A stretch of 64,000 nt of DNA, taken from NCBI GenBank assembly GCA_035048485.1, contig CM068584.1, forward strand, positions 60,699,739 through 60,763,738, read 5' to 3'. This stretch comes from Pteria penguin. Its lineage: Eukaryota > Mollusca > Bivalvia > Pterioida > Pteriidae. The position numbers were made by a program, and so were the translations under genes. This document shows, piece after piece, positions 28,211 to 63,665 of the stretch. The stretch's first letter is position 1; every line of letters begins with the position of its first letter. The notes under the pieces are model-generated. The model searched no databases. It saw only the letters and a list, made by a program, of their open reading frames with translations, and was not told where the DNA came from.

Positions 28211-31200
28211 CTATATTTTATTATACAAATTTACTTCTTTTGAAAATTCTATTATGTTCGTTATATTAACCCTCTCAAATAGCGCTTTCATATTATCTGC
28301 AGAAAAATAATTAATTCTAATATGTGCAGTATCTGCACAATCAAGTAAAATGTGTATTACACTAAGTAGACATCCGCAAGGGATACACTCTGGAGGGGTT
28401 CTTCCTTTAACAGGTAAGAGTGCGTGATCCAAGAGTGTCCAATGCGGAGTCTACTAATAACAACTGCATCTTTTCGACGGTCATGAAAATAATGTATTTT
28501 ATTTTTAAATATTGACTTGACCTCGTGAAGCTTATTATTATTTTCACGATCCCAGGCTTCCTGAGATAAAGTATCGATATAATTTGATATTGAAATCTTA
28601 AAATCAGTATAAGGTATTTTTCCTACAACATTTGAATTATTTAAACCATCCTTCCCTGCTTTGTCAGCTTTATCATTACCTACAAGGCCCATATGGCCAG
28701 GCACCCAACAAAATACAATGTTGGATTTCTTAGAGATAAGAAAATCTATCTTCTCCAGTATCCTCAATATATACGGATTGTTAACATTACGATGTTTTAT
28801 AGCTTGGAGACACGACAAAGAATCTGAGAATATTATGCTTTTAGAAATTTTATTCTGTTCAACATGAACAAGTGATAGAAGTATAGCTTTTGATTCTGCT
28901 GTAAATATAGAAGCATTATTTGGTAAGCGAATTGATAAAGATATATCTTTATCAGTTACTGCAGCAGCGGCGACTCTATCATCAACCTTAGAACCATCCG
29001 TAAAATATAATTTATGATTTGAATATGAAGACTTGATTTCTGAAAGGAGTTGTTGATATTTAATGGAATTAGTGTTTATTTTCTTGTGATCTGATAATGT
29101 GAGTATAACTGTAGGTTTTCTCATCAGCGAGAGCGGTGAAGAAGGTATTTCATAATTTGTTATATCAGATAATGTTATGCCAGCCAGTACAATATGGGGT
29201 CTAATATGTAAACCTATATTTTTAATACAATTTTGTTTATTATTGTATAAAACTTCATGTTTAGGTTGAAATACACAGTCAAAAGCAGGATTTAATGGAT
29301 TTGAATGTAGTTTCGTTATGTATTGCAAGGTAAGTTTAAGTCTTCTCTCTTTCAAAGATGGTTCGCCTGCCTCAGCATATAAACTCTGCACAGGTGAGGT
29401 CCTGAAAGCACCAATACTTAATCGTAAGCCTTGGTGATGTATGGTGTCCAGAAGCTGTAAATAAGACTTTCTGGCCGAACCATAAACAATACAACCATAG
29501 TCCAGCTTTCATCGGACCAGCGATCTATAAAGCTGAAGCAAGGTTGTACTTTCAGCACCCCATTCCGTACTAGATAAAACTTTTAAAATATCCAAGGTTT
29601 TAATACACCTAAGTTTCAAATATTTAATATGTGGTAAAAAAGATAAACGATTATCAAATATAATTCCAAGGAACTTCACTTCTTTAACTACTTTTATTTG
29701 GTCTCCATCTAAGAAAAGCTCCGGATCATTATGTATACGTTTCATCTGACAAAAATGTACACATGAGGTTTTATTTTTAGAAAATTTAAAACCGTTCTCC
29801 ACAGACCATTTATATATATTATTTAAGCAAAGCTGCAATTTTCGCTCTATCAGATTCATATTTTTTCCACGACAACAAATAAGAAAGTCATCAACATATA
29901 ATGATCCGTCAATGTCATTTTCCAAAACTTCTGCCAAGCTATTAATTTTAATATTGAAAAGGGTAACAGAGAGAATACTTCCTTGGGGAACACCCATTTC
30001 CTGCTCGAATGTATCGGAAGTATGTGCTCCTAGACGAACATTAAAATGTCTATTTTTAAGAAAATTCGAAATAAAAATTGGCAAATTGCCACGTAAACCC
30101 ATGGTATTCAAGTCTTTTAATATGCCATACTTCCAAGTGGTATCGTATGCCTTTTCCAGATCAAAGAATATAGAAACATTATGTTCTTTAGTAATAAATG
30201 CATCCCGAATATATGTTTCTAAACAAACAAGATGATCAGCTGTACTCCTTTGCTTCCTAAAACCGCACTGAATAGAAGTGATAAGATTATTATGCTCTAG
30301 GAACCAAATAAGTCTCTCATTTATCATTCTTTCTAATGTTTTACAAACACAGCTAGTAAGTGATATAGGCCGATAATTAATTGGATCAGTGTTATCTTTT
30401 CCAGGTTTTGGAATAGGAATTATTATAGAATCTTTCCAGGAATCTGGAAAATCTCCAGAACTCCAAATACGATTAAAAATATCGAGCAAAATGTTTAAAG
30501 ATTGAATGGGAAGATGCTTTATAATCTGATAGTGAATATCGTCTGGACCTACAGCAGTGTCATTTGATTTTTCCAAGGATGTAATCAATTCATCAATGGA
30601 AAATTTCTGGTTATAATCTTCATTGTTAGAAGATTTAAAATTAAGTTGTATTTTTTCGCTTTTCTGTTTTATACGTTTAAATTTTGGAAGGCAGTTATCT
30701 GATGAGGAGTTTTTAGAAAAAGTGCGACCTAAATAGTTAGCTATATCATTTTTATATGTTAAAACATGAGAATTATATTGCAGATGTTTAACATTATTGG
30801 AAGTATCTTTTCCTTTTATCTTCTTTATCATTTTCCATACTTTATTAGTAGGAGTTCGTGTTTTTATTTTAGAGACATATTTTCTCCATGACAATCGTTT
30901 ACAATGGTTAATAGTACGCTTTGCAATAGCTCTAGTTTTGCGTACATTATTTAGATTTGTATTCAAGGGATGTCTTTTATATAGTTTTTCAGTCCTTTTA
31001 CGTTCTTTGATGACATTTTTACAATCATCATCAAACCATGGGTTATGTTTGTGTTTTGGAACTGCAGAGGTTTTTGGAATATTCTGTTCACAAATTTCAA
31101 CCAGAGTATGTGTAAAAGTAAGTATAGGATCAGCTCCTTCTGAAAAGTTCACTGAATTTAGATTTGTAAGACAGTCCGATTGGAATTGGTTCCAGTCTGC

Positions 31201-31899
31201 TTTGTTAAGCTTCCATTGTGGAATATAATTATTATTAGAAGATATAATACTCTTTAATACAAGTGGAAAGTGGTCACTTCCACATAGATCATCGTGTACC
31301 GACCAAACAAAATCTGTTAAAAGGGAAGGATCACTTATTGTAAGATCTATTGAAGAATACGTTCCATGTCCTGGATGTAAGTATGTATTAGACCCATCAT
31401 TAACGATACATAAATTGTGTTTTGATATTAGGTCTTCAATTTTTTTACCTTTAGTATCTGTATGGTCACTACCCCAAATTTGATTGTGAGCATTAAAGTC
31501 TCCTAATAAAATGAAAGGTTTTGGTAACTGATCAATAAGATTATCTAGCTCTGCAGAATTGAAGTTAACACTTGGAGGAATGTATATAGAACACAACGTG
31601 ATAGTTTTCTGTAACGTGATACGGACAACAACAGCTTGAAAATTAGTATTTAGTCGCAAAGAACTGTGTAAAATGGAATTTCGAACTGGAATAGATGAAC
31701 CACCTTTGGCTCTGTCATCTGAACTATAAATATCATATTTTGCAAAATTCTTTCATTTGAGGGTATCGGTATCTTTTAGATGTGTCTCCTGAAGACAAAA
31801 TACTGCTGGCGAATATTGCTGATCAAGGAGATGTATTTCATTTATATTTGTTTTTAAACCTCTACAGTTCCACTGGATTATAGAATCAAAACGATTCAT
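28211..31899 (-). pseudogene. LINE ORF2 polyprotein, two stops and one frameshift
   Basis: The start codon at 31899 opens MNRFDSIIQWNCRGLKTNIN. AP-endonuclease motifs: WNCRGL, LQETH, LLGDFNAHNQIWGSD, GSDHFPLVL. RT motifs: IPIPKPGKD, FDLEKAYDT, GVPQGSILS, YVDDFLICC. RNase H motifs: TDGSKVDDR, AESKAILLSL, SDSLSCLQA, GHMGLVGNDKAD. A cysteine-rich C-terminus follows. Breaks: TGA in the endonuclease after DTDTLK (about 31760), TGA replacing Ser in LVR*KLDYG (about 29508), and a one-base loss at the CCTCCTCCA run (about 28395). All catalytic residues survive, so this is a recently dead copy of an intact design of about 1,230 aa. Confidence 0.9.
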
Positions 31900-33218
31900 T
31901 TTGTTTTTAATCTAGGAAGAGACGTTTTTCGACCCCTTTTGCCTGGAGATATACTGCGATCCCTAGAACGAGATAAAGAGTTTTTAACAAGGGTATCTGA
32001 ATTATATGAAGTATCTGTATCTATCGGAGGTGTATTTGAATCCTCCATTTCTACCTCAAGTGCATCAAATTTGTTGCTGACAACTACTGCAGAACTTGTG
32101 CTGGGAATACGTTTGATAGACTTCGTTTTACTCTGTGGTTTATTCTGTTTGTTATTTTGTTTAACTGGAGATAATTTTGTATTTACAACTGGTGTTGTCT
32201 GTGATGAAGATGATGACTTTGACAACGATGACGGCTTAGAAGATGATCGTGACGTCTTAGAGAAACCTGATGCATTATCAAGATCTTTTTGCAATCCTGT
32301 AATTTCGGTTTGACAAGCTACAGATACAGTTTTCTTGGAACTAAGAATATTAGCGTAACTCTGTGATGCGCAAGAACGCAGTTGTTGGCTATTATAAATA
32401 TTTCTGGCCTCAGGATAGGGAATACGTTTGTCTACTTTTATTTTAATGATTTCAACTTCTTTCTTGTATGCTGGACAATCTTTTGAGGTAGATTTATGAT
32501 TACCTTTGCAGTTAATACACTGCACAATAGAAGAATCACATGGTTCATCAAAGTGATCATCTTCGTAAGAAGGTCCAGTGTGACCACATCGGTCGCATGT
32601 CTGATGGTTTTTACAGTGTCCTCTTGTGTGTCCAAACTTAAGACAACAAAAACAACGCAGAGGAGAAGGATAATACTGCTCTACGTTGGCCAAAACGTAA
32701 CCTAATTTAATTTTTGTAGGTACAGTAGGCGTACTAAACGTCAGAAGAAAAGTATGAGATTTAATCTCCTTACCATCACGCTTAATGATAAAGCGTTTTA
32801 CAGCTATAACCTTTTGATTCTTGAGGCCATCAAGAATAACATCGTCAGCCAACAAATGTAAATTTCGGTCCTTGTCCCTGAGTATACCTCTACTAGTATT
32901 GAGAATGGAATGCGGTAATACTTTAACGGGTATTTCACCGATATGATCACACGTTTGTAAGTTCAAGGATTGTTGTTTTGATGCACATTCGACTACCAGA
33001 TTGCCGTTACGTTGTTTAGTGACGTTTTTAACAGTTCCAGCAATAGACTGTATAGTCTTATCCACTAAGAATGGAGAAGCTTTCGATAAAGCGTAGTCCT
33101 CAGCAGATATAACTAAATACCTTGACCAGTCGTCATCTTGTTGTTGAGCGTTCTCTATTGTGTCAGCTAAACGCTTACGTTTGGTAATTGTTTGGTGTGG
33201 TGTTTGTGTAGAATCCAT
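31896..33218 (-). CDS. LINE ORF1, zinc-knuckle RNA-binding protein (440 aa)
   Basis: Intact 440-codon frame. The N-terminal half (to about residue 180) has the RRM-like fold region of I-group ORF1 (YLVISAEDYALSKASPFLVD, FLLTFSTPTVPTKIKLGYV). Then come three zinc knuckles: CFCCLKFGHTRGHC (C-x2-C-x4-H-x4-C), CDRCGHTGPS...C, and CINCKGNHKSTSKDC. The C-terminal third is Ser/Lys-rich and low complexity (SSSKPSSLSKSSSSS) with a basic end. ORF1 proteins coat the LINE RNA in the RNP. Its stop TGA overlaps the ORF2 start as ATGA, which suggests translation of ORF2 by termination-reinitiation. This ORF1 could still act in trans. Confidence 0.9.
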   Translation of the reverse strand: MDSTQTPHQTITKRKRLADTIENAQQQDDDWSRYLVISAEDYALSKASPFLVDKTIQSIAGTVKNVTKQRNGNLVVECASKQQSLNLQTCDHIGEIPVKVLPHSILNTSRGILRDKDRNLHLLADDVILDGLKNQKVIAVKRFIIKRDGKEIKSHTFLLTFSTPTVPTKIKLGYVLANVEQYYPSPLRCFCCLKFGHTRGHCKNHQTCDRCGHTGPSYEDDHFDEPCDSSIVQCINCKGNHKSTSKDCPAYKKEVEIIKIKVDKRIPYPEARNIYNSQQLRSCASQSYANILSSKKTVSVACQTEITGLQKDLDNASGFSKTSRSSSKPSSLSKSSSSSQTTPVVNTKLSPVKQNNKQNKPQSKTKSIKRIPSTSSAVVVSNKFDALEVEMEDSNTPPIDTDTSYNSDTLVKNSLSRSRDRSISPGKRGRKTSLPRLKTK

Positions 33219-33897: not shown

Positions 33898-35608
33898 TAT
33901 CTACACATAAATGATACTACTAAAATGTACATGTATACACAATTAAAATATGTTATATTACAATATATTATATCTTACTATATAAGTTAACTTCTTTTAA
34001 AAATCCCAGAACTTTCCAAATACTGACATTCTCAAACAACTCGCATATACTTTTTACACTATAATAATCATTTCGAATGTGTGCAGTGTCTGCACATTCT
34101 ACTAATATATGTTTGATACTTAATAAACATCCGCAAGGGACACACTCTGGAGGAGGCTCTTCCTTTAAAAGGTAAGAATGAGTTATCCAGGAGTGTCCTA
34201 TGCGGAGTCTATAAGTAACAACTTCATCTCGACGATTACTATGATGACAATGTAGTTTATTTTTAAAAATTGGCTTGAAATCATGAAGTTTATTGTTAAC
34301 TTCATGATCCCAAGCTTCTTGTGTCAAATTCTCAATGTAATTTAAAATAGAAGATTTAAAGTCGCTATATGGAATTTTACCTATAGTATTAGATCTACAT
34401 ACAGCGTTTTTTGCTATTGTATCAGCTGTAACATTACCAACCAAACCCATGTGTCCTGGAACCCAACAAAATGCAACCTCCAAATTATTTGTCAACAGAG
34501 AATCAACTTTCTTTAAAATCTTCAAAACATATAGATTATTTGTATTGAAATATTGAATAGCCTGAAGACACGATAAAGAATCCGAATAAATGATATTTTT
34601 GGAATATTTATTTCTTTCAATGTGAGAAAGGGCTAAAAGTATAGCGTTAGCTTCAGCAGTAAATATAGAGCTATTATTAGGTAAACGTACGGATAGAGAA
34701 ACGTCGTTATCTGTTACTGCAGCAGCTGCAACTCTACCACCAGCCTTAGAACCATCTGTATAATATGATTTATTATCGGAATACAAAGACGCAATTTCCG
34801 AAAACATTTGTTGATATTGGAGGGGATTGGTATCAAGTTTCTTATAATCTGATAATGTTAGTACGACTGTAGGTCTCTTCGTCAACCATGGTGATGAAGA
34901 AGGTATTTCGTATTCAGCTATATCAGATAGCGTGATGCCAGCCTCCTCGATAAGTGGTTTAACACGTAATCCTATAGTTTTAATGTTATTTGGTTTATTA
35001 TTATGTTGTATTTCATATTTTGGCTTAAAGACACAATTAAACGCAGGATTTGATGGGTTTGCATACAATTTAATGATATATTGTAATGTTAATTTAACTC
35101 TTTCCCTCAAAGATGGTTCATTTGCTTCCGAGTATAAACTTTGTACAGGTGAGGAAAGCACCAAGACTTAATCTTAAGTCCTGGTGATGTATGGTGTCCA
35201 GAAGCTGTAAATAGGACTTTCTGGCCGAACCATAAACAATACAACCATAGTCCAGCTTCGATCGGACCAGCGATCTATATAGCCGGAGCAAAGTTGTACT
35301 AGATAAAACTTTCAAAATATCTAAGGCTTTTAAACATTTGACTTTTAAAGATTTAATGTGTGGTAAAAAAGACAGTCGTTTATCGAAGATGACACTTCAT
35401 TTACTACATTTATCCTATTACCTTCCATAAAAAAATCAGGGTCATTATGTATTCGCCTATTTTGGCAAAAATGAACGCAAGAAGTTTTATTTTTCGAAAA
35501 TTTAAAGCCGTTTTGTATAGACCACTGAAATATGTCATTAAGACAAAGCTGTAGTTTTCTCTCAATTAGATTCATATTTTTACCACGACAACATATCAAA
35601 AAGTCATC
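33898..35608 (-). mobile_element. I-group LINE, copy 5, truncated at both ends
   Basis: Minus-strand 3' half of ORF2 plus part of the 3' UTR. The last roughly 130 bp, including hairpin and tail, are missing where it meets the 5' end of copy 4. The 5' end stops inside the polymerase box (only the DDFLICC part, about 35605) against the CRE satellite. Confidence 0.85.
33968..35605 (-). pseudogene. LINE ORF2 C-terminal half, frameshifted
   Basis: RNase H (33968-35164) is open with YYTDGSKAGGR, AEANAILLAL, SDSLSCLQA and GHMGLVGNVTAD. Upstream pieces 35118-35315 and 35345-35605 hold the RT thumb (RSLVRSKLDYGCIVYGSARK) in other frames. A deletion removes the TEWGAES segment. No functional RT. Confidence 0.85.
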
Positions 35609-49752: not shown

Positions 49753-50133
49753 TATTGCACATCCGGACGGACACAGTGTAGTGTACGACTTTGCTTCCGT
49801 TCTAAGGTCGCACGCAAACGAAGATGATCAAATGTAGCAATGACGAATTCCGTCTTTTTGAGGTATTTTAATTTCATGATTCCTACACTGGTCACTCAAG
49901 GTATCATTTCCGGCGATTTATGTTCGTATATTTACATGTTACTGACATATAAACTATGAAGAATTACAGATCATGTTCGGCTTTCGATTTTGTTTACCGA
50001 TTTTGCTAGAATTGCTTCCCTGACCTGCAGATTTTTATATCGTTTTCGCACGGGGAGGGGGACACAAATTGACACTCAGAACGCTTGCCTCAAACGAACT
50101 GATTTCTAAAGCAATTATGTTTTCCACATTTAG

Positions 50134-50761
50134 GTTAGTATGCAGAGGCACCAAACACCAAGGTCAAATAGTTCATGGAGGCAGTCAATGTTGCTGTATA
50201 GCTTTCACCTTTCTAACTGCTGATTCAATTCCCTCAACATCGAATGAAGTTGATGACATATTGGCAAGAGGGACTACTCTGTATGACTATCAAACACAAT
50301 GTGCTGAAGGAGGATATATGCTGGTTACAGAACTATTAGGATCAATCAGAACAGACGACAGAACGGTCAACGTTTCACTTGGAGATCCAAGATGTGGTCT
50401 TATTGCTCAGAAATGTGACAACAAAGATAATCATACATACAACTTACAGTCGGCTCTAAAACAAACATTTGCTGAAACAGAAACAGCTTTCCTTACAGTC
50501 GGTAATTCACCTGGTTCAACTATTGGGATAAGGTCATTTGAGGGAAAATACTTCGTGATGGATTCTCACAGTCGTAATGATCAGGGTCTGTGTGTTCCCG
50601 ATGGAAAAGCAGTTGTGATAAAAACGTCATCTTTACCAGCGTTAACCGAGTACATAACAGATATGGCGAATTCATTATCCTTATTACCAAACGTACAGTT
50701 TGAAGTTACTTGTGCTCATTTTGAGATTGGAGCAGACCACCAATCTTGCGAGATGCCTGCC
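50134..50761 (+). pseudogene. hAT gene exon 2, 5' part: C76/OTU-like cysteine-protease domain
   Basis: After the acceptor TTTTCCACATTTAG the frame is open for 209 codons. RGTKHQGQIVHGGSQCCCIA holds the likely nucleophile Cys. LARGTTLYDYQTQCAEGGYM and LVTELLG follow, then AFLTVGNSPGSTIGIRSFEG and VMDSHSRNDQG with the Asp/His pair, and DGKAVVIKTSSLPALTEYI. This layout (G.QC....A, .RG..LY......GY.LV.EL, F.VFDSHSR) fits the herpesvirus-tegument-type deubiquitinase fold (C76/OTU-like) found in animal mobile elements. The frame stops in inserted DNA (TAA at 50783-50785). It continues in the same frame after the transposon, at 61287, into the transposase. Confidence 0.65.
50756..50761 (+). repeat. 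6-bp target duplication, left copy
   Basis: CCTGCC directly before the terminal repeat TATGGAACG; it matches 61281-61286. It codes Pro-Ala in the interrupted gene. Confidence 0.88.
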
Positions 50762-50855
50762 TATGGAACGCCACAGCTGCCTTAAGTCCAAGTGCTTATG
50801 ATATGAGGTGTTTTTTTGCAATATGTATATATATATATTCTCTTTTCGTGAGGTG
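50762..50855 (+). repeat. left terminal inverted repeat
   Basis: The first 63 bases match the reverse complement of 61218-61280 with four substitutions and a 2-base T-run difference (TATGGAACGCCACAGCTGCC against TATGGAACGCCATAGCTGCC). Similarity fades over the next 30 bp (TCTCTTTTCGTGA against TATCTTTTCATGA). Confidence 0.9.
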
Positions 50856-51221
50856 GTGTCTTTATGGTAAGAGATGGTGGTGCCTGTATATTGGGTTGTT
50901 AAACTTTAGAGGGGATCATTAAATTGGTTTTTGAAGTGGTATACCATTTTAATTAATTGATAAAGACATTATATCAGATGTATGTGTTGTAACATGAAGT
51001 GGATACATCGTGATTATATGTCGAATTTTCATTATATTAGGTGTAAACAGTATAGAAACTCGTTGTAAATAATTATATTAATAGGTAGTAATATTTCATG
51101 CACTAGTTCTAAATAATACGCAATGGTCGAAACGTGAAATTTGATACTTTAAGCATTATGTGGAGTGATCGTGAGATCACTTGCTTTGCTTTTGTGCTTA
51201 TATTGGATGGAAAAAGCATCA
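50856..51221. other. left subterminal spacer
   Basis: AT-rich, no gene. Lies between the terminal repeat and the 21-bp array. Confidence 0.5.
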
Positions 51222-51560
51222 CAAGAAATGATTTTGTCATTATGTATGATGGTCTTATCATTAAATCAGACTGTACCGCCATTGTGTCAAGTGGTTATGT
51301 CATTACATGATGTGGTTATGTCACGATATGATGTGGTTATGTCATTACATGATGTGGTTATGTCATGATATGATGTGGTTATGTCATTACATGGTGTGGT
51401 TATGCCATTACATGATGTGGTTATGTCATGATATGATGTGGTTATGTCATTACATAATGTGGTTATGTCATGATATGATGTGGTTATGCCATTACATGAT
51501 GTGGTTATGTCATTACATGATGTGGTAATGTCATCTTATGATATGCTTATGTCATTAAAC
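51222..51560 (+). repeat. left subterminal array, 21-bp unit, about 13 good units
   Basis: The unit contains GATGTGGTTATGTCATTAC, alternating with a GTCATGATAT variant; the left edge is degraded (TCATTATGTATGATGGTC). Because 21 is a multiple of 3 and the unit lacks stops, long false frames rich in DVVMSLH or MMWLCHY arise. The array ends about 425 bp before the HECT gene start. Confidence 0.92.
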
Positions 51561-51985
51561 CATGTTGTTAATTATGAATATGATTTATATTTTGTTGACT
51601 ATGACTTGTTGTGCACATTTCATGTTATGTGGTCGTTTCATCATGATGATGACGTGCATTCGGAAATTTTTGATTTTACCTAAAGGTCTACTGTTCAATC
51701 GGAAAACTTCCGATCTCTTTGGATACAAGGAACTACCGAAATGGTCACATTGTTTACTAGAGAACTTAATGTAAAAGCAAAAATTTGTGCGAAGACACCA
51801 AATATCTTAATTACCACGATTCCATATACTAGGTTCCTCATATATTATTCTTATGAATACATAAAGTTAAAATGACTTTGATTTATAGCTTTTAATGGCC
51901 TTTAGGCAGCTTCAAGTCTCTTCAGTTTTATCAGGGTCTTTCAGATGTTTTTGGTATTTCCTAGTACCATATCTAAAAGCTTAAA

Positions 51986-54900
51986 ATGGCGGCGCACACG
52001 GAGATAGATAATGTTCTAAAAGAAATAGATTTACATGCATTGTCAGCTCGTTTTAGAGCTGAAAAAGTAGACATTTACAACGTTCTAAGTTTGAGTGATC
52101 AAGACCTCAATCGTATTGGTGTATCGACAATCGGGGATCGGATTAGATTAAGAGAAAGGGTTTCAGAGTGGAAGCGTGAGACATCTCGTGCCGAAAGCCT
52201 TGATGGACTGGAAAACGGTAGGCCTAATATTGGAGCATTAGACATGATCAGGCAACAAAGAAACGCATTATTTTCTCGACCAAGGAAGAGAACGAGTAAC
52301 TCTAACAGTAAAAACATATATAATAATTCTTCAACAAAGACCTCGCGCAATTCCAGAAGTTGGACAGTGTCAGTGTTTTGCCTATCTGATAAGGACACCT
52401 GTAAAGTGCCTACCGCAGAGGAAAAAGAGACATTATATAAAGCGGGTTTAGGACTTAAGAAAATAAAATTAGATATGTGTGATGGAGTTTCAGAGGTAAT
52501 GGAAAAGGTTGCATCTGATGAGAAAGATGAAAACGGTGATATAATTGGATTCCCAAAATTAAAGAATTGTGGAGGTTACGAATTCTTAAAATGCCAGTCA
52601 AACAATAGAATGCTGACATTAGTAAATTGTGAATGGACTGTGAAGAGTCTGAAATCGTGCATAGGTCCACAGGCAAAACTTTTTATAAGACCTATTCAGC
52701 TAAACTTATCAACCATGCCAATTGAAAACAGTGTGTCTTCGACACAAACAGTCATCAAAGAGGCTTGTAAGCAATGTGGCGTACAGTTTCCTATAGCTGA
52801 GCTTAGAAAACATTGCATGTTCTGTTTTGAAAATGACCATGATGATATTGAGCAACTTAATGAAGGTGTGTTTGTGTCACCTGATTCAGCACCAATTATC
52901 ATTGAGCAAACACATTTACTGCAGTCACCATTGGAGCAATTACAAGTACCGGTAACAGACCAAGAAATACATGTAGTACCAGTAGTTGATCCAACTGCAA
53001 ACCAAATCAACCACACAGAAAACCAGATAACTGTAGCACAACTTAATGAGACCAGTACCATGGACAGTATCATGGATACTGTTTTAAATGCAATTGATCA
53101 TTGTATCTCTGAACAAATTGAAAATCCTGTTGAGATTCTACGATTATTACAGTCAGTGTTGGTTACAGGAGGAAAGTTGGAAATAGAAGACCCAACACAA
53201 GTGGAGGAAGGCCCTACAAACTTTATCATTGTTGACAGGTCAAACTTATTAGAAACAGCATTTGATGAAATAAAAGATCCGAGTGATTTGAGGTTAACAC
53301 TAGAAGTTCAGTTTTACAATGAGGTAAGTTGTATCTCATCATGTACTTAATGTATAATAATTCCAGGATCTTCTGAGTTTCTGTGCTTTTTGTCATTGAT
53401 TTATTAGAATTTGATCATGGACAAGTGAAAATCAGGGTAGGGCAAGTAATTTGAAAAACTTTTTGACAGCCCATTTGAGGGGGTCCAACACACATGTACA
53501 TTTGGAACTACATGTGCAGTATATGTATGAAAATTGCCAAATAAAGGCTAATTTTGGCAAAAAAAGTAGTGACTTGCTCCTTTTGACCCCTGGCTCATTT
53601 GCCTATGGCTTATCAACTTTTTCAGAGCTACATATATATGCATTTTTGGCCGGATTGCAAAGCAGTTTGAGTCTATAGATACACGTAGGCGATGTCCGTC
53701 TGTCTGCCTGTCAACATTTTAGTTAAAGTTTCTGGTTGAAGCAAAATTTCTGCAACTAAAAGGATTATAAGAGTAATACTTCACACATTATAACTTCCTT
53801 ATGACCACAGACTTTCAAATTATGCCATGACTTTTGACATAGTAACCTTGACCTTGGACTTTGACCCTACTTTCATTTTAAAAACATTTACTTTGGATAT
53901 ATCTTTTGACACAATAGGAATAGGGCTTTGATACATGTACTCTAATCTCTACACATAAGTTCTTTAAAGAGAGTGCTTTCAATTGATACTATGACTCTTG
54001 ACCTTGTGACCTTGACATTGTTTTGAATTTGCTTTGCAATATGTCCATAACATCTTTTGTGGTTTCTTGTTAGTTATATTATGACATGGAAGCAGAATGT
54101 AACCAACCACTTAAACGTCAGTAGCGTAAAGGGCTAAAGGCATCTTCCCAAGGCAAGGTTTGAACTTGCTATGCAATTACAAACCTTGCCTTATACACTC
54201 ATAATTTCTAGAATTGACCCACATTATTCTGATTAATTCCTTCACCATTTATCTTAGGTAGACCAACAGAGAGAATGTTACCTCGTACCTCACCTGCACT
54301 GAAAGCCAAGAGCTTAACCACTGCACCAAATCTGCCCCCAATACACAATTTGGACTAACATTGATTGATTGATTTTTGTTTAACGTCACACCAAGAACAT
54401 TTCATGTATATGGTGACGGCATCTGCCTGATGCAGAGCATACAAATTATGACCTTTGCAACGGACCCACCCGAAGCAGTGAGGGATCTTTAACATGCCAT
54501 GCATACCACGACACGGGGCCTCAGTTTTTACTGTCTTATCCGAAAGACAGAACACCGGCATGACCAGAGTGGGACTCGAACCCCGGCCTCTCGATCAGGA
54601 GTCCAGCGCAATACCACTAGGCCATGACGGCTTCTTGGCTGTAACATGTAAATACATATACAGTACATGATCATATGAGTTACAGTATTTTTATGCCCCC
54701 GCCATTTATGGAATATTTTATATTTAAAGATGGCTGTTGGGGGGCGGGGGGGGGGCATTCATGTTGTACCGACATATTTGTATTTTTTTATTTTGAAAAA
54801 CACAAAATCTGCTAGAGTTATGTTATTGTAAATTTTCTTTCAAAATGATATGCTGCATATTGATTTACTTCAGTGTATCAAATTGAAAATTATGTGTAAC

Positions 54901-57135
54901 TGTTGCTTTGAAATTTTCATGATGTTTATAAACATTTATAAAAATGTTTATAAACATTTAAATGACAATCTACTGATACAGCAATTTAGTATTTTAGGTG
55001 GCTGTTGACTATGGTGGACCACGTAAGGAATTTTTCCGTTTAGTTCTCTCCCGTATCAAGGAAAAGTACTTTGACAATGGTCTGAGGGAGCTCCTGGCTG
55101 AAGATTACGAAATAGTAGGAAAACTATTAAGTACTGGCTTTAAGAAAATGGACCTCATGCCAATTAAATGGGACTCATTAGCTTGCCCATAGCCTAATTA
55201 CTTAGCCAGGGCGCAATCATTTACCAGTGTGGCAACATAGTGTTTAACAAATACATCTTTTGTTTTTAATTTAAGGTTTAAGCATTCTTCAAAATGGCAA
55301 AGTTCCACAATTTCTGGGTGAAGAGATAGAAAATAAAATATTCTCTGCTGATCCATCTTCAGCTTCCATAATGAACCTAAGAGCTGGTTTGGATTCCCTT
55401 GGAATGTATACGGTATGCTTTATCAGATAATAAAAATTATTCCTGTACTTAGGGACTTTAGGTTTCCACCTTCTCAATCTGTCTGCCACACTAGTTTTCC
55501 AGACTTTTCTCCCCTATGCTTACAGATAGCATGTTGAAACCCCATAAGTAGTTACAGATGAAGTTCGAGTTTCATTCTGGTTGACCTACTTTTGGCAGTT
55601 ACAGAACTTAGACTTACATAGTAAGGGGAATATGTATTGCTTCAGCAATACTATCAGAATAATTGTTAATGTAGAATCTGGCATACATCTTGGTTATGCT
55701 CTACAAGTGGAATGCTTACATTATACTTTCAAACATCAAGGAATATGTATCTGCACATATTTTATGCTGTCAGTTGAGTAAGCAATTTGTGCTCAGCGAG
55801 TGATATAGGCTTACTAGGGCTCTCTTGTTTTATATACACACAATTAATAGTTTAGTTCATATACAGTTGTAGTAATGCTGGAATTCCCTGCTTACCAGTA
55901 AATTATTTGACAGTAATGTTTTGTGCAAAATTGACAGTTCTTGAATGATAGATATCATATTATTAATATTTAAATTAAAAGGAAACTTTACAAAATGTAT
56001 GTTCAGTTGAAAATCTTCTTTTGTCTTTCAGGTTGGAATTAAATTGCCTATAATTCGGCATCTACTCCGACCTACTGCCACTAAATTAACAGTGAAATCT
56101 CTTATAAACCTCTTACATCCTGAATTTTCCGAGGAAGGTTCAAATAATAGAAGGAAGGAGAATATTGTCTATTCAGCATTTACCAGATACATTAGATCAG
56201 CTGCAAGTGAGTTCCTTTAAGTATTTGTGTAAATGCTTACAATGTATACAATGTTACTTCACCCATTATCATTAGTGCCCTACTATGGAACAACAAATGA
56301 TTTCAATGTTGTATGTGTATGTTTGTCAACTTTTTAGCTCATCTGAGCCAAAGGCTGAAATGAGTTATTGTCATAGCAATTTGTTCTGCGTCTGTCATCC
56401 GTCGTCGTTAACTTTTCACATTTCCGACTTCTCCGAAACCACAGCGCAGAATATGTCCAAACCTTATCGGAAGTTAGTACTCAATGTCCTCTGCCAAGTT
56501 TGTATCTTTTTTACCTGATTGGTAATCCAAGATGGCCGACATGGGCCCTAATTGATTGACTCAAATTTCGACTTGTCTTTAACTGATTTACAGTTTTCTG
56601 TCAAATCTTGTAGGAAGTAAGTACTCAATGTCCTCAACCAAAACTGTATCCATTGACCAGATCATCATCCAAGATGGCCAACATTTCAAAATTTTATAGA
56701 ATGTGTTGAAAGTATGCAGATTCTTCTCCCAAAGTTGAACAAACGTTTGTGAATGAGCAAATTGTGCTCAGGTGAGCGATATAGGTCCATTTGGGCCTCT
56801 TGTTTTATTGAGAAAACAATTGAATGACATCATAAGAATGTTTTGATACTCATTAAATATTTATATTATTTGTTACAGGTGGGAGAAGTACAATTACATT
56901 AGAGCATATTCTGCAATTTACCACCGGAGCTTGTGAAGAGCCTGTCCTTGGTTTCAATCTACACCCTACACTTGAATTTGTACCCGTCATGAAATCCTTT
57001 ATACCAACTGCTAATACTTGCAGTAATTCACTCAAGCTACCTATACCCTCTGATACTATGCCTTTACTACCTGAACAGGAACTTTTTGAATTGTATGATT
57101 ATGCATTTGCTAATACATTTTATGGTATGTATTAG
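51986..57135 (+). CDS. SAM-UBZ-HECT E3 ubiquitin ligase, five exons, 679 aa (G2E3-like)
   Basis: Exons 51986-53323, 54998-55130, 55276-55412, 56032-56206 and 56879-57135 join in phase (1338+133+137+175+257 nt) into 680 codons with canonical GT-AG borders. Residues 1-65 are a SAM domain (ALSARFRAEKVDIYNVLSLS, GVSTIGDRIRLRERV). Residues 66-125 are basic and low complexity. Residues 130-245 contain a module ending FIRPIQLNL, known from HECT proteins of fish and molluscs. CKQCGVQFPIAELRKHCMFC is a UBZ-like C2HC finger. From about residue 410 the HECT domain runs: FYNEVAVDYGGPRKEFFRL, the GKLLSLSILQNGKVPQFL helix, and the catalytic loop TANTCSNSLKLP with Cys642. HECT ligases pass ubiquitin through this Cys. 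The protein ends FYGMY. The target is unknown. All five exons are intact, unlike the surrounding hAT gene. The start AAAATGGCGG has a good animal context. Confidence 0.9.
53324..54997 (+). other. intron 1 of the SAM-HECT gene
   Basis: Donor GAG|GTAAGT and acceptor GTATTTTAG|GTGGCTG, phase 0. Contains TTGACCTTGTGACCTTGAC-type old repeats (53850-54030), the SINE at 54361-54625 and a TATGCCCCCGCC/GGGGGGCGG hairpin repeat at 54690-54760. Confidence 0.8.
54361..54625 (-). mobile_element. tRNA-headed SINE, family A, full 3' tail
   Basis: Minus strand: head CATGGCCTAGTGGTATTGCG with box B GGTTCGAGTCCC, the body shared with 11546-11790, then the hairpin CGTCACCATATACATGAAAT...GTGACG and an (ATCA)n tail at 54361-54373. 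It inserted into intron 1 of the HECT gene, showing that the element has aged in the genome or carried the SINE along. Confidence 0.88.
55760..55840 (+). mobile_element. terminal fragment of a GCTCAGGTGAGC-type repeat, intron 3
   Basis: TTGTGCTCAGCGAGTGATAT and AGGGCTCTCTTGTTTTA match the right end of the repeat at 56333-56815; the rest is missing. Confidence 0.55.
56333..56815 (+). mobile_element. non-autonomous repeat with GCTCA.CTGAGC ends, intron 4
   Basis: Starts TTTAGCTCATCTGAGCCAAA and ends GTGCTCAGGTGAGCGATATA followed by GGGCCTCTTGTTTTA. The ends are imperfect inverted repeats (12 bp, one mismatch). The internal GTCATCCGTCGTCGTTAACT segment is one I associate with a repeat very common in bivalve introns. 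Confidence 0.65.
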
Positions 57136-58931
57136 CAGTTTACATGTTTGTGGGACAGAAAGTTAACTTGAAAGAAATTCAAGCTAGGTAGAATATTTTG
57201 CCATGATTTTGTCTTAGATCATAGAAAATGACTTAAATTGGTTGTTAAGAATTTGCTGTATTGAATATGGCTAAACATTGTAGTTTATGATGAATTTGAT
57301 GTATAAGAGATTGGAGGATGAGACATTATTTTTATATGTCCACATATACAATGTTTCGACGGGATATAGTTTTTGCCCATTTGTCTGTTCATCTGCATCA
57401 TTAAACATTTGTTTGTAACTTTAAAATGACAGGATCCTTAATATTTACTATCTGCATTTCTTGTGTTTACTAATTATAACCCCCACCCCCTTTTGCTTTG
57501 CCTTACTTTGAATTTGTTGCCGGGGGGGGGGGGGTATTTGTCCTGTTAGGACAGTTCTAGTTGCACTTGTTGTGCCCATACCTTTTATATGGTAGCTATA
57601 TTTTTTTTACCTTATGACCTATGACATACTTTTCAAAACATTTAGTAATATGAAAACCATTTAAACCATAAATGCTAGGACTGATATTTAACATGTGTAT
57701 TTCTTGTGATTAGACCAAAAGTTTTTAACAACAGCCTTTTACTTATCTTTTAAAAAATGTTACAATCTAATTTGCTCCTGCTTGGGAGACATGAGTGTTT
57801 ACAAACACTGTTTGTCAAACAAAAAAGAATTACTATTTGTGTTTCTCATATCCAGTAAATTATACTTGATTTAAATGACACTCAAAGAAGGGTTGTTTGA
57901 TTTAATTGACACCCAAGAAAGAGTTTATTGAAAAATAATATCTTTTTTGGTGAATCACATTTACTGTAAAACAAAATCTAATTTTTATGCCCCCGACCTG
58001 AAAGATCTTAGGGCATATAGCATTTGGTCTGTCTGTCCGTAATTCTGTCCCGCTTTTCTCAAAATACAATAAATTTTATATCAATTGCCATAGAGACTTT
58101 GTATTTGAAATGCATAATCAAATTATGAAACCCTTTTAAATGATACCAAGTTCAGTGACCTCTTGACCTTTATATTAAAATACAATGAATTTGCCAGAAT
58201 TTGACACAGATACTTCATGTTTGGTATTCATACTCAGCTAATGAAACTCTTTCAAATAAAAACAAGGTCAATTACTTTGACTATGACCTTTGACCTACTT
58301 TTCAAAATTTGCCTTATTTGAACTTTAGTGCCACTGGGGCATTTGTGTTTCACAAACACATTTTGTTTGTTTCCATATTTGTTTGTAATCATTTATTTCT
58401 TATTTTTCATTACCCAGGCAGGTATTTTGCGATGAATCATATTCTTGAAAGTCAGTTGTCAGATATATATTTTTCTTGTTCATAATGTATAATATGATTA
58501 CCACTTTTTTTGTTCATAATGTATAATATGATTTCCACTTTCCACAGATATTTTAAAAAGTACCAAAACATTTGACCTACTAACCTAATGGGGGATATTT
58601 GCCTCATTAAGACGGTTCTAGTTTCAATGTTACTTCTTCTTCATCTGCAGATATATTGTATATGTTGAATATATTAAATCCTTTTTATGTTAAATCCTTT
58701 TTATCAATTGCTTGACTGGTCATGATATTCTACATCAAGAAATATGTTAAAATGTGCAAGGTTCATCCTTTTCTAACAGATAATACAAATGGCAAGAATT
58801 TGTAGATTTAAATAAAGCTTTGTGATTTTTGTTAGAAGTTTATTGTTTAACATGTTTGAATTAAATTAAAAATGAGCAAGCACTTTTGTTTTTTCCTTTG
58901 AAACAAGAAGTGGTGTTCTTTCATTCATAAA
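57136..58931. other. convergent intergenic region inside the transposon
   Basis: AT-rich 3' flank shared by the two convergent genes. It holds old repeats (TATGCCCCCGACCTGAAAGA at 57985, TTGCCGGGGGGGG near 57520, TTTGACCTACTTTTCA motifs). An AATAAA-type signal for the plus gene is near 58810, and one for the minus gene (TTTATT) is near 58840. No further gene seen. Confidence 0.5.
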
Positions 58932-60299
58932 TTACACTGAGGGATGAAAGTGGTTTATGATTCTCACACAGGTACTGTAATCATCAATTCCAAAATTGAC
59001 ATACATTCGGGGAGTAGGCACTTCTGCTGCTAACATTTGTTTGCAGTTGTCACCAAGAACCAGCGACAGAGGGACAAAAATAGGCCTTTCGCCGTCTTCA
59101 ACTTCCGGTTGATCATCATGAATTACCCCTTCTATGCCATACTGATCCAACTGATTACTGTCCAATTCAATTCCTACTGGGTTTTGGAGTTGTCCAGATA
59201 TCCACAATGCTTGTGGAGAAGCTCTTGTTGTCCTCATTCTATGTCCATCCCATGCTCTTACCCATATATTAAGTTTCATGTTTATGCTTTCATTGTATGT
59301 ATACTGAAGTGCAAGTAAATGGTTTGGATTCAAGCAGTCAAGAATACCCAAATCCTCAATGTAATAGAACAGATTGTAATAATAGTTAAGTACACCTTCG
59401 AACACGTCTCGCCACAGTCTTTCTATCCGTTGGTTGTGGGTACTTTTTCCTGTAATCATGCTTCCTTGTCCTTTTGAAGTCAACATAAAGTCTGCAACAC
59501 CGACGTTTTCCAGTCCCTTATCAGATCTTACTCGCTTTGGAACTCCGTATTTTTCGACACCAGAGAGAAAATGCTGAAGCACAGTAGAAGCTTTGTTGTT
59601 GTCAGAACACTTTAAAAACATTATTCTCCTACTAAATCCATCAATGCCTCCAATAATGACATTTCTCAAACGAATGAGCTTGTGGTTTGTGTCAATATGC
59701 CATGAATGGTTTGGCGCAACCACATTGTACACCCGTCTATGCAAACGACCTTTTTGACGTTCTTGTACTCCTCCAGAATCCAGTCGGTGGATGGAATCTC
59801 TTAGTCGCCATCTCTGGACTCTAATGCCTTGGTGTTTTACCATTTCCCTTATTATACTTTCACCACAAAATGGGAAGTCCAGAATAATCTTGTTAATTGC
59901 CCTGTCGGGGTCATCATCAGTTATGTCAGAAAAAGCCATATTACTTAAGCCATATTGTGACATTCTTCTATAAATGGTGCGTTCAGAGACTGACAGAAGC
60001 TTCGAAATATCGGAAACTTTGAATCCATTATCCAACAAGCTTTCCAGTGATGATCTAGGTATATGGTATTCTGGAGCCCCAACACTAGCGTCGAGTTTTG
60101 GGGGCTTGCAACGACCATGTTTTATGCACTCTGTTCTAAGTTTCATCATATCTGAAGTATTATGAATTCCCAAAATTTGCATTTCACTTGTAGACAACTT
60201 GCCAACAATGTCGGGTGTTATGTTCTCGCTATTAAACTTATGACAGGTGTGCTGTAAACCTAGTTTCTCTAACACTTTGATCATTTCTGCGTCCGCCAT
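58932..60299 (-). CDS. SAM-HTH-DDE integrase (455 aa), probable transposase
   Basis: One uninterrupted frame from the ATG at 60299. Residues 1-60 form a SAM domain (VLEKLGLQHTCHKFNSENIT, LSTSEMQILGIHNTSDM). Residues 83-117 form a helix-turn-helix (SLESLLDNGFKVSDISKLLS, VSERTIYRRMSQYGLS). Residues 195-330 form an RNase H-fold integrase core of the retroviral type: HSWHIDTNHKLIRLRNVIIG with D203, YGVPKRVRSDKGLENV with D260, THNQRIERLWRDVFEG with E293. The rest (to 455) is an all-purpose C-terminal region with no recognised domain; there is no HHCC zinc finger and no RT, so it is not a retrovirus. Proteins of this SAM/integrase-core type are scattered through fish, mollusc and cnidarian genomes without a firm element assignment. 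Here it lies within clear inverted ends, which supports a role as transposase. Confidence 0.9.
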   Translation of the reverse strand: MADAEMIKVLEKLGLQHTCHKFNSENITPDIVGKLSTSEMQILGIHNTSDMMKLRTECIKHGRCKPPKLDASVGAPEYHIPRSSLESLLDNGFKVSDISKLLSVSERTIYRRMSQYGLSNMAFSDITDDDPDRAINKIILDFPFCGESIIREMVKHQGIRVQRWRLRDSIHRLDSGGVQERQKGRLHRRVYNVVAPNHSWHIDTNHKLIRLRNVIIGGIDGFSRRIMFLKCSDNNKASTVLQHFLSGVEKYGVPKRVRSDKGLENVGVADFMLTSKGQGSMITGKSTHNQRIERLWRDVFEGVLNYYYNLFYYIEDLGILDCLNPNHLLALQYTYNESINMKLNIWVRAWDGHRMRTTRASPQALWISGQLQNPVGIELDSNQLDQYGIEGVIHDDQPEVEDGERPIFVPLSLVLGDNCKQMLAAEVPTPRMYVNFGIDDYSTCVRIINHFHPSV

Positions 60300-60589
60300 G
60301 TTTGATTCAGATGGTTAAGCACATTGTACACTACGAATTCAGCATTTTGTCAACTCGAGACTTACATAATATAGCAGTACAATCTCATACGAAAGCACAA
60401 TTGCCACTCGTATTGATTTTACCACAAGTGATGACGAAATAATTCTATATTTGTTACTACCACCCTCGTAAAATTACATGACTATGTCTTGAAATGATCA
60501 AACAACCCAGAGATCGAAGTCATAGTATAATAAAATGAAATACTTACCCTATAAAATTACAATTTACATGACAACAAAACATAACCAAA
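60300..60589. other. 5' flank of the integrase gene
   Basis: Short upstream region between the integrase start and the right array. It must contain the promoter; no clear TATA box was identified. Confidence 0.4.
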
Positions 60590-61110
60590 TTATACCATGA
60601 CATAATCATGTCTTGTTATGACATAACCATATCATATCATGACATAACCACATCATGTAATGACATAACCATAGCATATCATGACAAAACCACATCATGT
60701 AATGACATAACCACATCATATCATGACATAACCACATCATATGACATTATCACATTATGTAATGGCATAACCGTATCATGTAATGACATAACCACATCAT
60801 GTAATGACAACACCACACCATATAATGACAACACCACACCATGTAATGACAACACCATACCATGTAATGACGACACCACACCATGTAATGACAACACCAC
60901 ACCATATAATGACAACACCATACTATATAATGACAACACCACACCATGTTATGACAACACCATACCATGTAATGACGACACCACACCATGTAATGACGAC
61001 ACCACACCATGTAATGACAACATCACACCATATAATGACAACACCACATCATGTTATGACAATACCATATCATGTAATGACCTTACCACATCGTGTTATG
61101 ACATTACGAC
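60590..61110 (-). repeat. right subterminal array, 21-bp unit, about 24 units
   Basis: The plus strand shows GTAATGACATAACCACATC units (60600-60810) that are the exact inverse of the left array. A derived block of GTAATGACAACACCACACC type (60810-61080) follows towards the terminus, then degraded units. The repetitive frames (CNDNTTP, HHVMTTP) are artefacts of the 21-bp period. Confidence 0.93.
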
Positions 61111-61186
61111 TTTGTACAATGACATTACAATTTCAAAAACGATTTTATGGCCTGACATATTGGCATCATCACCTCTCATAATAACA

Positions 61187-61280
61187 ACACAACGTCATGA
61201 AAAGATAAAGCCAATAAATATATTGCAAAAACACCTCATATCATAAATATTTGGACTTAAGGCAGCTATGGCGTTCCATA
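61187..61280 (-). repeat. right terminal inverted repeat
   Basis: Reverse complement of the left end; terminates GGCGTTCCATA at 61280. It abuts CCTGCC. Confidence 0.9.
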
Positions 61281-61286
61281 CCTGCC
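61281..61286 (+). repeat. 6-bp target duplication, right copy
   Basis: CCTGCC, identical to 50756-50761. Confidence 0.88.
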
Positions 61287-63665
61287 GCTGAGACTGATTG
61301 TGGCGAGGTGCCTGCCGCTGAGATTGATTGTGACGAGGTGCCTGCCCCATACACTAGTATACCTGGTGAGGTTAACGTACCTGGTGTATCTCCATTCTCT
61401 TCATCGTTGGATATAGCACGTTGTATTAGTGAACCGGGTATTATTACGGATGATCTTAAGTTCTCGTTGATATCAAACAGAATTCCTCATGACAATTATA
61501 GATTTCCTTCCCGTACATACAAAGACAAAAGGCGAAAAAGTGGTGTCATATACAGACGATGCAAACCAGAGTGGTTTAAAACTTTTGAATTCCTGTGTTA
61601 TTCAGAATCAAAGGATGGTCTATATTGTTTAGGTTGCTGTCTCTTCCCCGATACCTCACACAGACGTCCCAAAAACTTATTTCAGAACCCTACTTTAACT
61701 GGAAAGATGCAATGGAAGACATGAAAGAACATTCAACCTGCATGTATCACTTGTCGTCAATGGCAAAACTCCATTCTTTCATCGGAACGCACATGAATCC
61801 AAATCAGAGATTAGATCTCTCAATCAGATATGAAGAAAGTGAAAGAGTAAAGAAGAACAGACAGATTTTGTCCTCAATAATTAAGACGCTTGTTTTTTGT
61901 GGACGACAAGGAATTGCATTAAGGGGGTTCATCGGGACGATGAGTCGAACAGAGTAAAGAGCTCAAACATGGGCAATTTCAAAGAGCTTCTGCAGTTTCG
62001 CGCCGATGCTGGAGATGTCATACTACAGGAACATCTACGATCATGTGCCAAAAATGCATCCTATATTTCAAAAACTTCTCAAAATGAACTTATGACGTGC
62101 GTGAAAATGTATACACAGGAAGAGATCGTGAAAGAGATAAATGCACAACCAATTGGACCGTATTACAGTATCCAATGTGATGAAGTTACAGATGCTAGTA
62201 ACTGGGAACAGCTGGGACTTGTTGTTCGTTATCTAAAAGATGGAAAGCCTATTGAGCGCTTACTTGAATTCATCCCGTGTGAAAATGTTTCTGGAGAAGC
62301 AATCTGTGATGCAATAATCAGCTGTTTAATCCATGTTGGTCTAGATCCTCAGGAAATGTCGGTCACAGACTATGGACGGGGCCGGAAATATGGCGGGTAA
62401 AAACATTGGAGCTGCCGCACGATTTAGAGCAATCAATCCAAAGGCAATCTATCATTACTGCAGCAGTCACGACCTGAACATGGCCATTAGTAAAAGCTGC
62501 CAGCTGAAAGAGGTTCAGATCTGCCTAGATGCCTTGAAGAAGTTGGGAATCTTTTTCAAGTACTCTCCGAAGAGTAGGAGGTTAGAAAAGGCAGTTGACG
62601 AGGTAAATGAAGACCGCGAAGAAGCCAGAAAGATCGACAAGAAGAAGTTCAAGGTTTATTCAGAGACCAGATGGGTAGAAAAACACACTACACTTCAGGC
62701 TTTTGATGACCTTTATGAACCGATTCTTTTATGTCTGGATGCCATATCGTCCAAGGAAAGAGGATGGGACTCTAAAGCAGTAGTAGAGGCAAATGGATTG
62801 CTTCACAAAATTTCAGAACCTATATTTGTCGCTGCTTTCCAGACTATACTTCATTACTTTCGCTACACGGCAGGACTGAGCAGGAAACTACAAGGCTCGT
62901 CCTTAGATATTCCCCAGGGATACAGAATGGTAAAAGACATACGTGAGATCATTTTAGATTCGAGGGCCAACGACACTGACTATGATCAAGTCTACTGTAG
63001 AATGGACAAAATGGCAAGTTCCTCAAGTACGCCTCTTAAAGTTCCGAGACAATGCATTCAACAGACACAGGAGAAGCAACGTTCCAGCATCTACGACAAA
63101 GGAATACTTCAAAAGATCAGTCTTCATTCCTTACGTCGACGCCTTGATTCAACAACTCGAGATGCGGTTCTCAAACCTTGCTGAGCAAAGCACCAAGGCA
63201 TTGCTACTGATTCTGCAAACATGGCACACATAAGCCAGAGCGACATCAATGACCTGAAAGAGATCTATGGAAGTGACATGCCGGATGTTGAGTCCCTTGG
63301 TCAAGAGTTTGTTTTGTGGAAACACATGTGGAGTCGTCAGGATGAACAAGAGAGACCACAAACACTGACGGGAACTCTACAGAGTCCTCGATCCTGCCCA
63401 ACTATGTACCCGAACATCATGACGGCTCTGCAGCTGATGCTTCTGACATCTGTAACTTCCAGCTCTGTGGAAAGAGCTAATTCGTCTCTGAGATTCATTC
63501 AAGGGATATCTTCGAACAACTATGTCAGAAGACAGGTTCAACTCCTTGATGCTCCTATTTATACATCGAGACATAATGGTTGACATTGAGAAGGTGATCG
63601 ATACGTTTGCAAGGAGAAATCCAAGGCGCATGATGTTGCAAAGCCCACTTGGAGAGGTGGCATAA
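61287..63665 (+). pseudogene. hAT gene exon 2, 3' part: TTF zinc finger, DUF4371, hAT dimerisation
   Basis: It continues the frame of 50134-50761 after a clean removal of the transposon and one duplication copy. First comes a 10-residue repeat (EMPAAETDCG, EVPAAEIDCD, EVPA), with its first copy split by the insertion. The zinc finger follows (FLCYSESKDGLYCLGCCLFP), then the ALRG..RDDESN and DUF4371 blocks (YYSIQCDEVTDASNWEQLGL, MDGAGNMAGKNIGAAARF, YSETRWVEKH), ANVPA-like RSNVPASTTKEYF, and the dimerisation motif TSVTSSSVERANSSLRFI. The end is DTFARRNPRRM with a stop at 63663-63665. At least six frameshifts occur (near 61685, 61925, 62370, 63075, 63220, 63545), so the transposase is dead. The family is the ZMYM1-like/52-kDa-repressor-like hAT branch. 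Confidence 0.85.

Follow-up and report, generated by a model that had tools for sequence, protein, structure and literature searches.

Gene content and boundaries of the element

The window analyzed here, a stretch of 64,000 nucleotides from the Pteria penguin genome, contains a DNA transposon in which a transposase gene and a predicted ubiquitin ligase gene converge between inverted ends (Table 1). The terminal inverted repeats match at 44 of their first 48 bp (maximum of 26 among 2,000 shuffles), with similarity extending to 123 bp, and the target-site duplication, CCTGCC, is identical at 6 of 6 positions. This bears out a preliminary description of the same DNA, which had proposed an intact convergent gene pair inside inverted ends and a 6-bp duplication. 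When the flanks are fused with a single CCTGCC, one uninterrupted reading frame runs across the insertion site. CCTGCC is found again within a 30-bp repeat of the target sequence, so that the duplication in the window is by itself weaker evidence than those of other copies, where GGAAAG, CATATC, CACTGC, and CAAAGC all match at 6/6 positions.

Table 1. Features of the transposon, in positions of the window
Feature	Position	Strand	Remarks
Two-gene DNA transposon	50762-61280		10.5 kb; inverted ends, 6-bp duplication, and convergent gene pair
Left target-site duplication copy, CCTGCC	50756..50761	.	Joined flanks form one open frame
Right target-site duplication copy, CCTGCC	61281..61286	.	
Left terminal inverted repeat, begins TATGGAACGCC	50762..50884	+	80% identity to right end over 123 bp
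Right terminal inverted repeat	61162..61280	-	
Left subterminal array	51291..51557	+	Period 21 bp, 12.7 copies
Right subterminal array	60614..61103	-	Period 21 bp, 23.5 copies
Ligase exon 1	51986..53323	+	SAM (residues 6-61), C2HC-type finger (about 260-280)
Ligase exon 2	54998..55130	+	HECT N-lobe (fold of homolog P0001)
Ligase exon 3	55276..55412	+	
Ligase exon 4	56032..56206	+	
Ligase exon 5	56879..57135	+	HECT C-lobe, Cys642 (codon 57019-57021), stop codon
Transposase gene	60299-58932	-	SAM, HTH, and DDE integrase core (D203, D260, E293)

The two subterminal arrays are built from the same 21-bp unit in inverse orientation, and all 14 loci examined have an array of period 21 or 42 bp upstream of their transposase. 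The period of 21 bp stays constant although the sequence of the unit varies, which offers a further testable rule of architecture. A unit of this length equals two turns of DNA, as would suit helical phasing. The inverted 21-bp arrays and the IS3EU-type ends discussed below are additional to the features listed in the preliminary description.

Ends of the same kind recur in the genome. In the window family, all six copies that retain two ends carry TATGG..CCATA at both of them, and 17 of 18 divergent loci have the expected terminus upstream of their transposase. The duplications match at 6/6 positions in copies E1, E3, E5, F4a, and F6, at 5/6 in E4, and at 4/6 in M6, a gene-free element of 393 bp. 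The preliminary description had raised the case that all other copies might have ends without genes; such a copy exists in M6, and other copies carry genes. A common flank links E1 to E2, and likewise E8 to E9; these are thus duplicated loci and not independent insertions.

Domains of the transposase and the predicted ligase

The transposase is encoded by one open frame of 455 amino acids and matches the Pfam family rva_4 (E = 3.5e-69), with SAM and HTH models matching below cut-off only. The triad D203, D260, and E293, named earlier for this SAM-HTH-DDE protein, is unchanged across 22 aligned transposase proteins, and no integrase zinc domain is found in the transposase at E ≤ 1 (Pfam). Its SAM domain resembles that of tankyrase.

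The second gene is predicted to span five exons with GT-AG introns (51986-57135, + strand) and to encode 679 amino acids. Based on its domains and a catalytic cysteine, we classify the product as a putative HECT E3 ubiquitin ligase, with Pfam scores of 26.4 bits for HECT (cut-off, 23.9) and 26.2 bits for SAM_1 (cut-off, 23); the closest homolog, P0001, reaches 22.0 bits for HECT, slightly under the cut-off. The predicted catalytic residue, Cys642, sits in TANTCSNSLKLP and is kept in 25 of 25 proteins of ligase alignment A2, as well as in 38 of 43 proteins of a wider set, the remaining five being without that region. The SAM-UBZ-HECT architecture first proposed thus holds for the SAM domain, the HECT domain, and Cys642. 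The UBZ is not supported: the finger is of the C2HC type (CxxC..HxxxC) with no Pfam match above cut-off, its weaker matches being XAF1_C, FYVE, TRAFD1-XIAF1, and zf_C2HC_14. G2E3, to which the ligase had also been likened, carries PHD/RING-like fingers at its N terminus. This kinship finds no support, as no PHD family matches at E ≤ 1 (Pfam) in the window ligase, P0001, P0003, P0007, or P0008.

The SAM domains of the two proteins were also considered as sisters, given an initially strong score. They score about 19 to 46 bits against each other, and host SAMs of solved structure reach up to 32.7 and 41.2 bits against the element's SAM profiles; since host SAMs score in a similar range with SAM-only profiles, the initial score does not establish this relationship. 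The ligase SAM alone as a database query gave 44 candidates with none at E ≤ 10, which is uninformative either way.

Co-occurrence of the two genes across the genome

Within the window's own 838-Mb genome, a convergent transposase match lies at most 25 kb from 38 of 43 ligase loci (matches merged within 16 kb), which corroborates the earlier assignment of both genes to one transposon family. Because only the best candidates are scored in the genome search, this and all other genome counts are lower bounds. All five unpaired loci are incomplete matches that contain one or more stops, and no stop-free ligase locus without a transposase partner is seen among the 43. Lone homologs at host loci without ends, the case that the preliminary description had set against a common family, were sought in this genome and none was found.

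That the ligase is a host gene captured by one transposon copy, or a chance neighbor, has a negligible probability in our assessment, and no support for it was found in this genome. With ligase matches merged within 12 kb, 30 of 32 loci have a convergent transposase neighbor, against 0.03 expected by chance (32 × 69 loci; lower bounds), which rules out chance neighborhood. Capture by a single copy is ruled out by the recurrence of the pairing across families whose transposases are 79 to 44% identical. In addition, exact matches to the ends number 355 (a lower bound), against 0 for the reversed control, and every unpaired ligase locus seen carries stops. We regard it as virtually certain that the element and the pairing are real. 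The presence of both genes side by side at 38 genomic places makes it likely that the ligase takes part in the movement or self-control of the element.

Seen from the transposase, no ligase match is found at 17 of 55 loci of ≥42% identity, including 5 of the 37 long loci in this set, nor beside any of 14 more distant loci (lower bounds, with some flanks unread). The long unpaired transposases include a four-copy group on C5 and an open 455-codon frame at C11:39041728, both of which may lack a ligase or have one that is too distant or lies in an unread flank.

Conservation and decay of the ligase among families

The ligase accompanies the transposase in all six families for which the 3' flank was read. 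Compared with the family of 79% identity, dN/dS is 0.10 and 0.14 for the two genes, with the ligase value covering exons 2 to 5. In two of the six families, the last ligase exon alone is left in the examined copy, one of these with a stop, and copy F4a combines an open transposase with a frame break in exon 1 of the ligase. Such reduced or broken ligases indicate that a working ligase in cis is not needed by each copy. F4 transposases look young.

These observations bear on what the ligase may do. A doubtful alternative, though the strongest, is that within the same element the ligase would remove a host factor for silencing, restriction, or DNA repair and so enable movement. Between the window and F4a, identity is 36 to 38% in the N-terminal half of the ligase (residues 7 to 449), whereas the C-lobe exon reaches 62% and the transposase 60%; such stronger divergence is expected if the N-terminal half follows a changing host target. 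However, retention of the ligase beside the transposase in all families read and its low dN/dS over exons 2 to 5 fit a core role equally well or better. Considerably less probable is a brake or dose sensor, by which the ligase would degrade free transposase and keep copy number tolerable with no role at the strand-transfer complex. The common SAM class of the two proteins is in line with such a brake, as is the damaged ligase of F4a together with the young appearance of the F4 transposases, which a broken brake would allow; yet selection among transposon copies should favor loss of a pure brake, and the families retain their ligases.

Assignment to IS3EU/GingerRoot and proposed role of the ligase

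In the available portions of their published description, IS3EU/GingerRoot elements have TA..TA termini, TAYGG..CCRTA in fungal families, and a 6-bp duplication (PMC10045372, PMC12730594). Here, we observe a 6-bp duplication, TATGG..CCATA termini, and a DDD/E transposase with an integrase-type core, and the ends and transposase thus fit this superfamily as described there. For these parts, the earlier statement that no named DNA-transposon superfamily with this gene pair is known is not supported. The DDE transposases of that superfamily are without a retroviral (HHCC) zinc domain before the core (from the parts of PMC12730594 available), a trait that the window transposase may share, given the Pfam result above. 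Fungal IS3EU elements encode other effector enzymes, namely, alpha-kinase and TET/JBP, which favors the host-factor alternative, and in TET+ families the alpha-kinase gene is opposite in orientation to the transposase (same portions of PMC12730594).

Our best explanation, held at even chances, is an IS3EU-type two-gene transposon in which the most likely substrate for ubiquitination by the predicted HECT ligase is the transposase assembly of the element itself; for that assembly as the target taken by itself, our confidence falls just short of even. The transposase would bind the phased 21-bp arrays at both ends and may polymerize via its SAM domain, and the SAM domain of the ligase would recruit it to this assembly. 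Tagging of the transposase could then lead to the stable strand-transfer complex being taken apart after insertion, and might also clear surplus transposase. Weighing against this model are the transposase loci with no ligase match, the copies with a reduced or broken ligase, and the SAM scores, by which the two proteins do not stand out from host SAMs. More tentatively, the element may represent an IS3EU branch with the ligase as a second core gene, in which SAM copolymers form on the 21-bp arrays and self-tagging dismantles the transpososome.

Extra enzymes carried by eukaryotic transposons are known. In the open-licence literature searched, however, we found no DNA transposon whose transposase has a conserved partner in a ubiquitin ligase of the same element. 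If the tentative reading holds, this would be, to our knowledge, the first transposon to bring its own ubiquitin-driven disassembly step. No HECT partner of an IS3EU transposon was found in the open-licence literature, although Repbase entries could note one, and "HECT" is absent from the available text of PMC10045372, PMC12730594, and PMC10853768. Should the transpososome prove to be what the ligase acts on, a two-gene system would be at hand to test how DDE complexes are cleared once insertion is complete, a problem that retroviral integrases pose as well. Uncharacterized SAM/HECT and integrase-core genes of bivalve annotations would partly be transposon products, and under the tentative reading, transposon genes would account for some of the SAM-HECT proteins that bivalve and octocoral annotations list as "host" proteins.

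Comparison with known systems

Relatives of alignments A1 and A2 (the latter being the ligase) were absent among viral contigs, and among genome contigs the matches were three short ones from a sponge-symbiont MAG, which carry fragments of the transposase but no ligase. Other bivalves and fish were compared at the protein level; homologs are known from Pinctada imbricata (P0001, P0080), Saccostrea, Mytilus, Sinanodonta, and octocorals. Ligase and transposase hits in Pinctada and Argopecten fall on contigs of equal length, which indicates a common chromosome at most and was given no weight. Compared with described IS3EU elements, the window element differs in its second gene, a predicted HECT ligase, in the SAM domain of both proteins, and in its arrays of 21-bp period. 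Styx of Zymoseptoria derives from an IS3EU element that also encodes two proteins, one a DDD/E transposase, but the available portions of its description mention neither "ubiquitin" nor "HECT" (PMC10853768). The host HECT ligases UBR5, HUWE1, SMURF, AREL1, and E6AP share the fold and the catalytic cysteine motif with the element's ligase, which, unlike them, has an upstream SAM domain and finger and is transposon encoded. Finally, the ligase might do by means of ubiquitin what ClpX does in remodeling the Mu transpososome, or what VBP1, together with Cul2/VHL, does to HIV-1 integrase (PMC3562280, PMC3738961, in the portions available). This is a working resemblance only, since in both of those systems the host supplies the machine, whereas the window element would supply its own.

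Copies of the element and its insertion site

The ligase and transposase genes of the window element (E1) recur as a convergent pair elsewhere in the genome. When the left end was searched against the window's own genome (838 Mb, 49 contigs), 15 matches were obtained, which resolve into five long two-ended copies (E1 to E5), one short two-ended copy (M6), and three one-ended copies (E7, E8, and E9). Both genes are present and convergent in all five long copies, and both are open only in E1. The one-ended copies E8 and E9 contain the transposase and the last ligase exons, and E7 contains only N-terminal parts of the ligase, four times over. Since a flank of E1 recurs at E2, and E8 and E9 likewise have one flank in common, these represent duplicated loci, with E2 being a duplicate of the window locus or a duplicate within the assembly. 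The terminal pattern has 355 exact matches genome-wide (182 forward and 173 reverse, against 0 for the reversed control), which suggests many short, gene-less, nonautonomous derivatives such as M6.

The element itself sits within a decayed gene, whose downstream part matches DUF4371 (hAT-like) above the cut-off and whose upstream part shows a Herpes_teg_N-like protease match below it. This target was likely another mobile gene, possibly with ubiquitin chemistry. We also observe a dispersed repeat in ligase intron 1, a tandem of N-terminal ligase pieces on C5 and, elsewhere in the window, open frames in several copies that, judged by eye, look like non-LTR reverse transcriptase/RNase H.

Positions of element copies, ligase loci, and other features (C, contigs of the window's genome)
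Feature	Position	Duplication	Observation
E1	window 50762-61280	CCTGCC, 6/6	long, two ends
E2	C5:47394559-47405073 (47.39M)		long, two ends; flanks same as those of E1, 13 Mb away
E3	C5:8.89M	GGAAAG, 6/6	long, two ends
E4	C2:68.8M	5/6	long, two ends
E5	C1:72.2M	CATATC, 6/6	long, two ends
M6	C2:51687501-51687893	4/6	393 bp, two ends, no gene match
F4a, divergent copy	C12:36544604-36557041	CACTGC	both ends delimited
F6, divergent copy	C5:20003597-20011280	CAAAGC	both ends delimited
Unpaired ligase locus	C5:45676539		13 stops in one match
Unpaired ligase locus	C5:44708250		16 stops
Unpaired ligase locus	C5:41935968		4 stops
Unpaired ligase locus	C5:57334682		1 stop
Unpaired ligase locus	E7		1 or 2 stops in each match
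Distant integrase-core loci (examples)	C10:33157898, C2:80206839, C5:60576314
N-terminal ligase piece with adjoining sequence (L028, L029)	C5:46452966-46458583		four in tandem
Repeat in ligase intron 1	window 54415-54633, 11544-11765		90% identical
Decayed target gene	window 50069-50761 (upstream), 61281-63583 (downstream)
Open frames, several copies	window 213-2331, 20746-21360, 24665-25768, 28357-33218, 33968-35164

Pairing of ligase and transposase

With the window ligase as query, 79 matches were obtained, forming 32 loci, and at least 30 of these have a convergent transposase match within 25 kb (chance expectation, 0.03), this and the following pairing counts being lower bounds because only the best candidates were scored. 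Adding a second, distant ligase query (P0020, from Sinanodonta) gave 43 ligase loci, at least 38 of them paired; the five unpaired loci are partial matches, all with stops. The transposase query gave 96 matches, merging to 69 loci. At identities of ≥42%, at least 38 of 55 transposase loci are paired with a ligase, as are at least 32 of the 37 long ones; at <42%, a ligase match was found near 0 of 14 loci in this genome, again a lower bound. These 14 form a distant integrase-core group (31 to 41% identical), many of them open.

Of 18 divergent loci examined, 17 have the terminus TATGGAACGC 0.5 to 1.2 kb ahead of the transposase match, and a convergent ligase match is present in all six families for which enough 3' flank was read, their transposases being 79, 72, 62, 60, 52, and 44% identical to that of the window. 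The last exon is the only ligase part found in F6, the 44% family (F10) has a stop in that exon, and ligase exon 1 of F4a has a frame break; at five other F4 loci, the exon 1 region is open (frames of 525 to 531 aa). Family F4 looks recently active, since six of its transposases are open (453 aa), including one identical pair, and no two of these six share a left flank.

Transposase and ligase exon 5 distances are correlated (Mantel r, 0.91; a value reached in 4 of 5040 permutations) in a test of seven rows, two of them from one family and one comprising 41 residues. Comparison of the window with the 79% family gives dN/dS ratios of 0.10 (transposase) and 0.14 (ligase exons 2 to 5), values that are rough because dS is >1; beyond this family dS is saturated. 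The ratios between E1 and E3 are 0.39 (transposase) and 0.36 (ligase), and those between E1 and E2 are 1.6 to 1.7 on 14 changes per gene, as expected for decay of a duplicated copy.

Terminal arrays, SAM domains, and a proposed role for the ligase

Inside its two ends, the window element carries a 21-bp unit in 12.7 and 23.5 copies, in inverse orientation. Arrays with a 21- or 42-bp period precede the transposase at all 14 loci checked (several from one family), F4a having such arrays at both ends, and the unit sequence varies between families. As 21 bp corresponds to two turns of B-DNA, sites repeated at this spacing would lie on the same helix face, and we infer that the arrays are putative transposase binding sites.

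A SAM domain stands at the N terminus of each protein. Among solved structures, the SAM-only profile of the transposase best matches tankyrase (32.7 bits), and that of the ligase best matches Bicaudal-C (41.2), ANKS6 (39.9), and tankyrase (32.6). These host domains assemble into head-to-tail polymers or mixed complexes. A common origin of the two element SAMs was considered; their mutual match (hhalign, 98.5%; about 19 to 46 bits) is not clearly above their match to host SAMs and so does not demonstrate it.

The predicted transposase would load onto the phased arrays, where the predicted ligase would join it via SAM contact and tag it with ubiquitin; tagging would then lead to dismantling of the strand-transfer complex and removal of surplus transposase. 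The chief rival is that the ligase acts on a host target, which would suit the greater divergence of its N-terminal half between the window and F4a. For the proposed action on the transposase, precedents are described in ClpX, which remodels the Mu transpososome by unfolding one MuA subunit (PMC3562280), and in the ubiquitination of HIV-1 integrase via VBP1 and Cul2/VHL (PMC3738961).

Relatives and comparison with IS3EU elements

Relatives of the ligase protein number 79 at E ≤ 1e-3 among 7993 candidates scored and, where named, come from bivalves, octocorals, and an acorn worm; those of the transposase number 1976. In a predicted Mytilus coruscus protein (P0079), a piece 53% identical to the ligase is joined to retroviral-type Pol domains, which may reflect an annotation fusion. 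IS3EU-like transposase pieces also occur on three contigs (L001-L003) of a sponge-derived Cycloclasticus MAG, likely as host DNA.

The ends and duplication of the window element fit IS3EU/GingerRoot as described in the consulted portions of the literature: TA..TA termini with duplications usually of 6 bp (PMC10045372), and TAYGG..CCRTA in fungal families (PMC12730594). In fungal TET+ families, the transposase gene and an oppositely oriented alpha-kinase gene flank a TET/JBP gene (PMC12730594), and Styx derives from an IS3EU element encoding two proteins (PMC10853768); IS3EU elements in which the transposase is faced by a second enzyme gene are thus already known. A HECT ligase as that second gene was not found in the literature searched, including the portions consulted of PMC10045372, PMC12730594, and PMC10853768.
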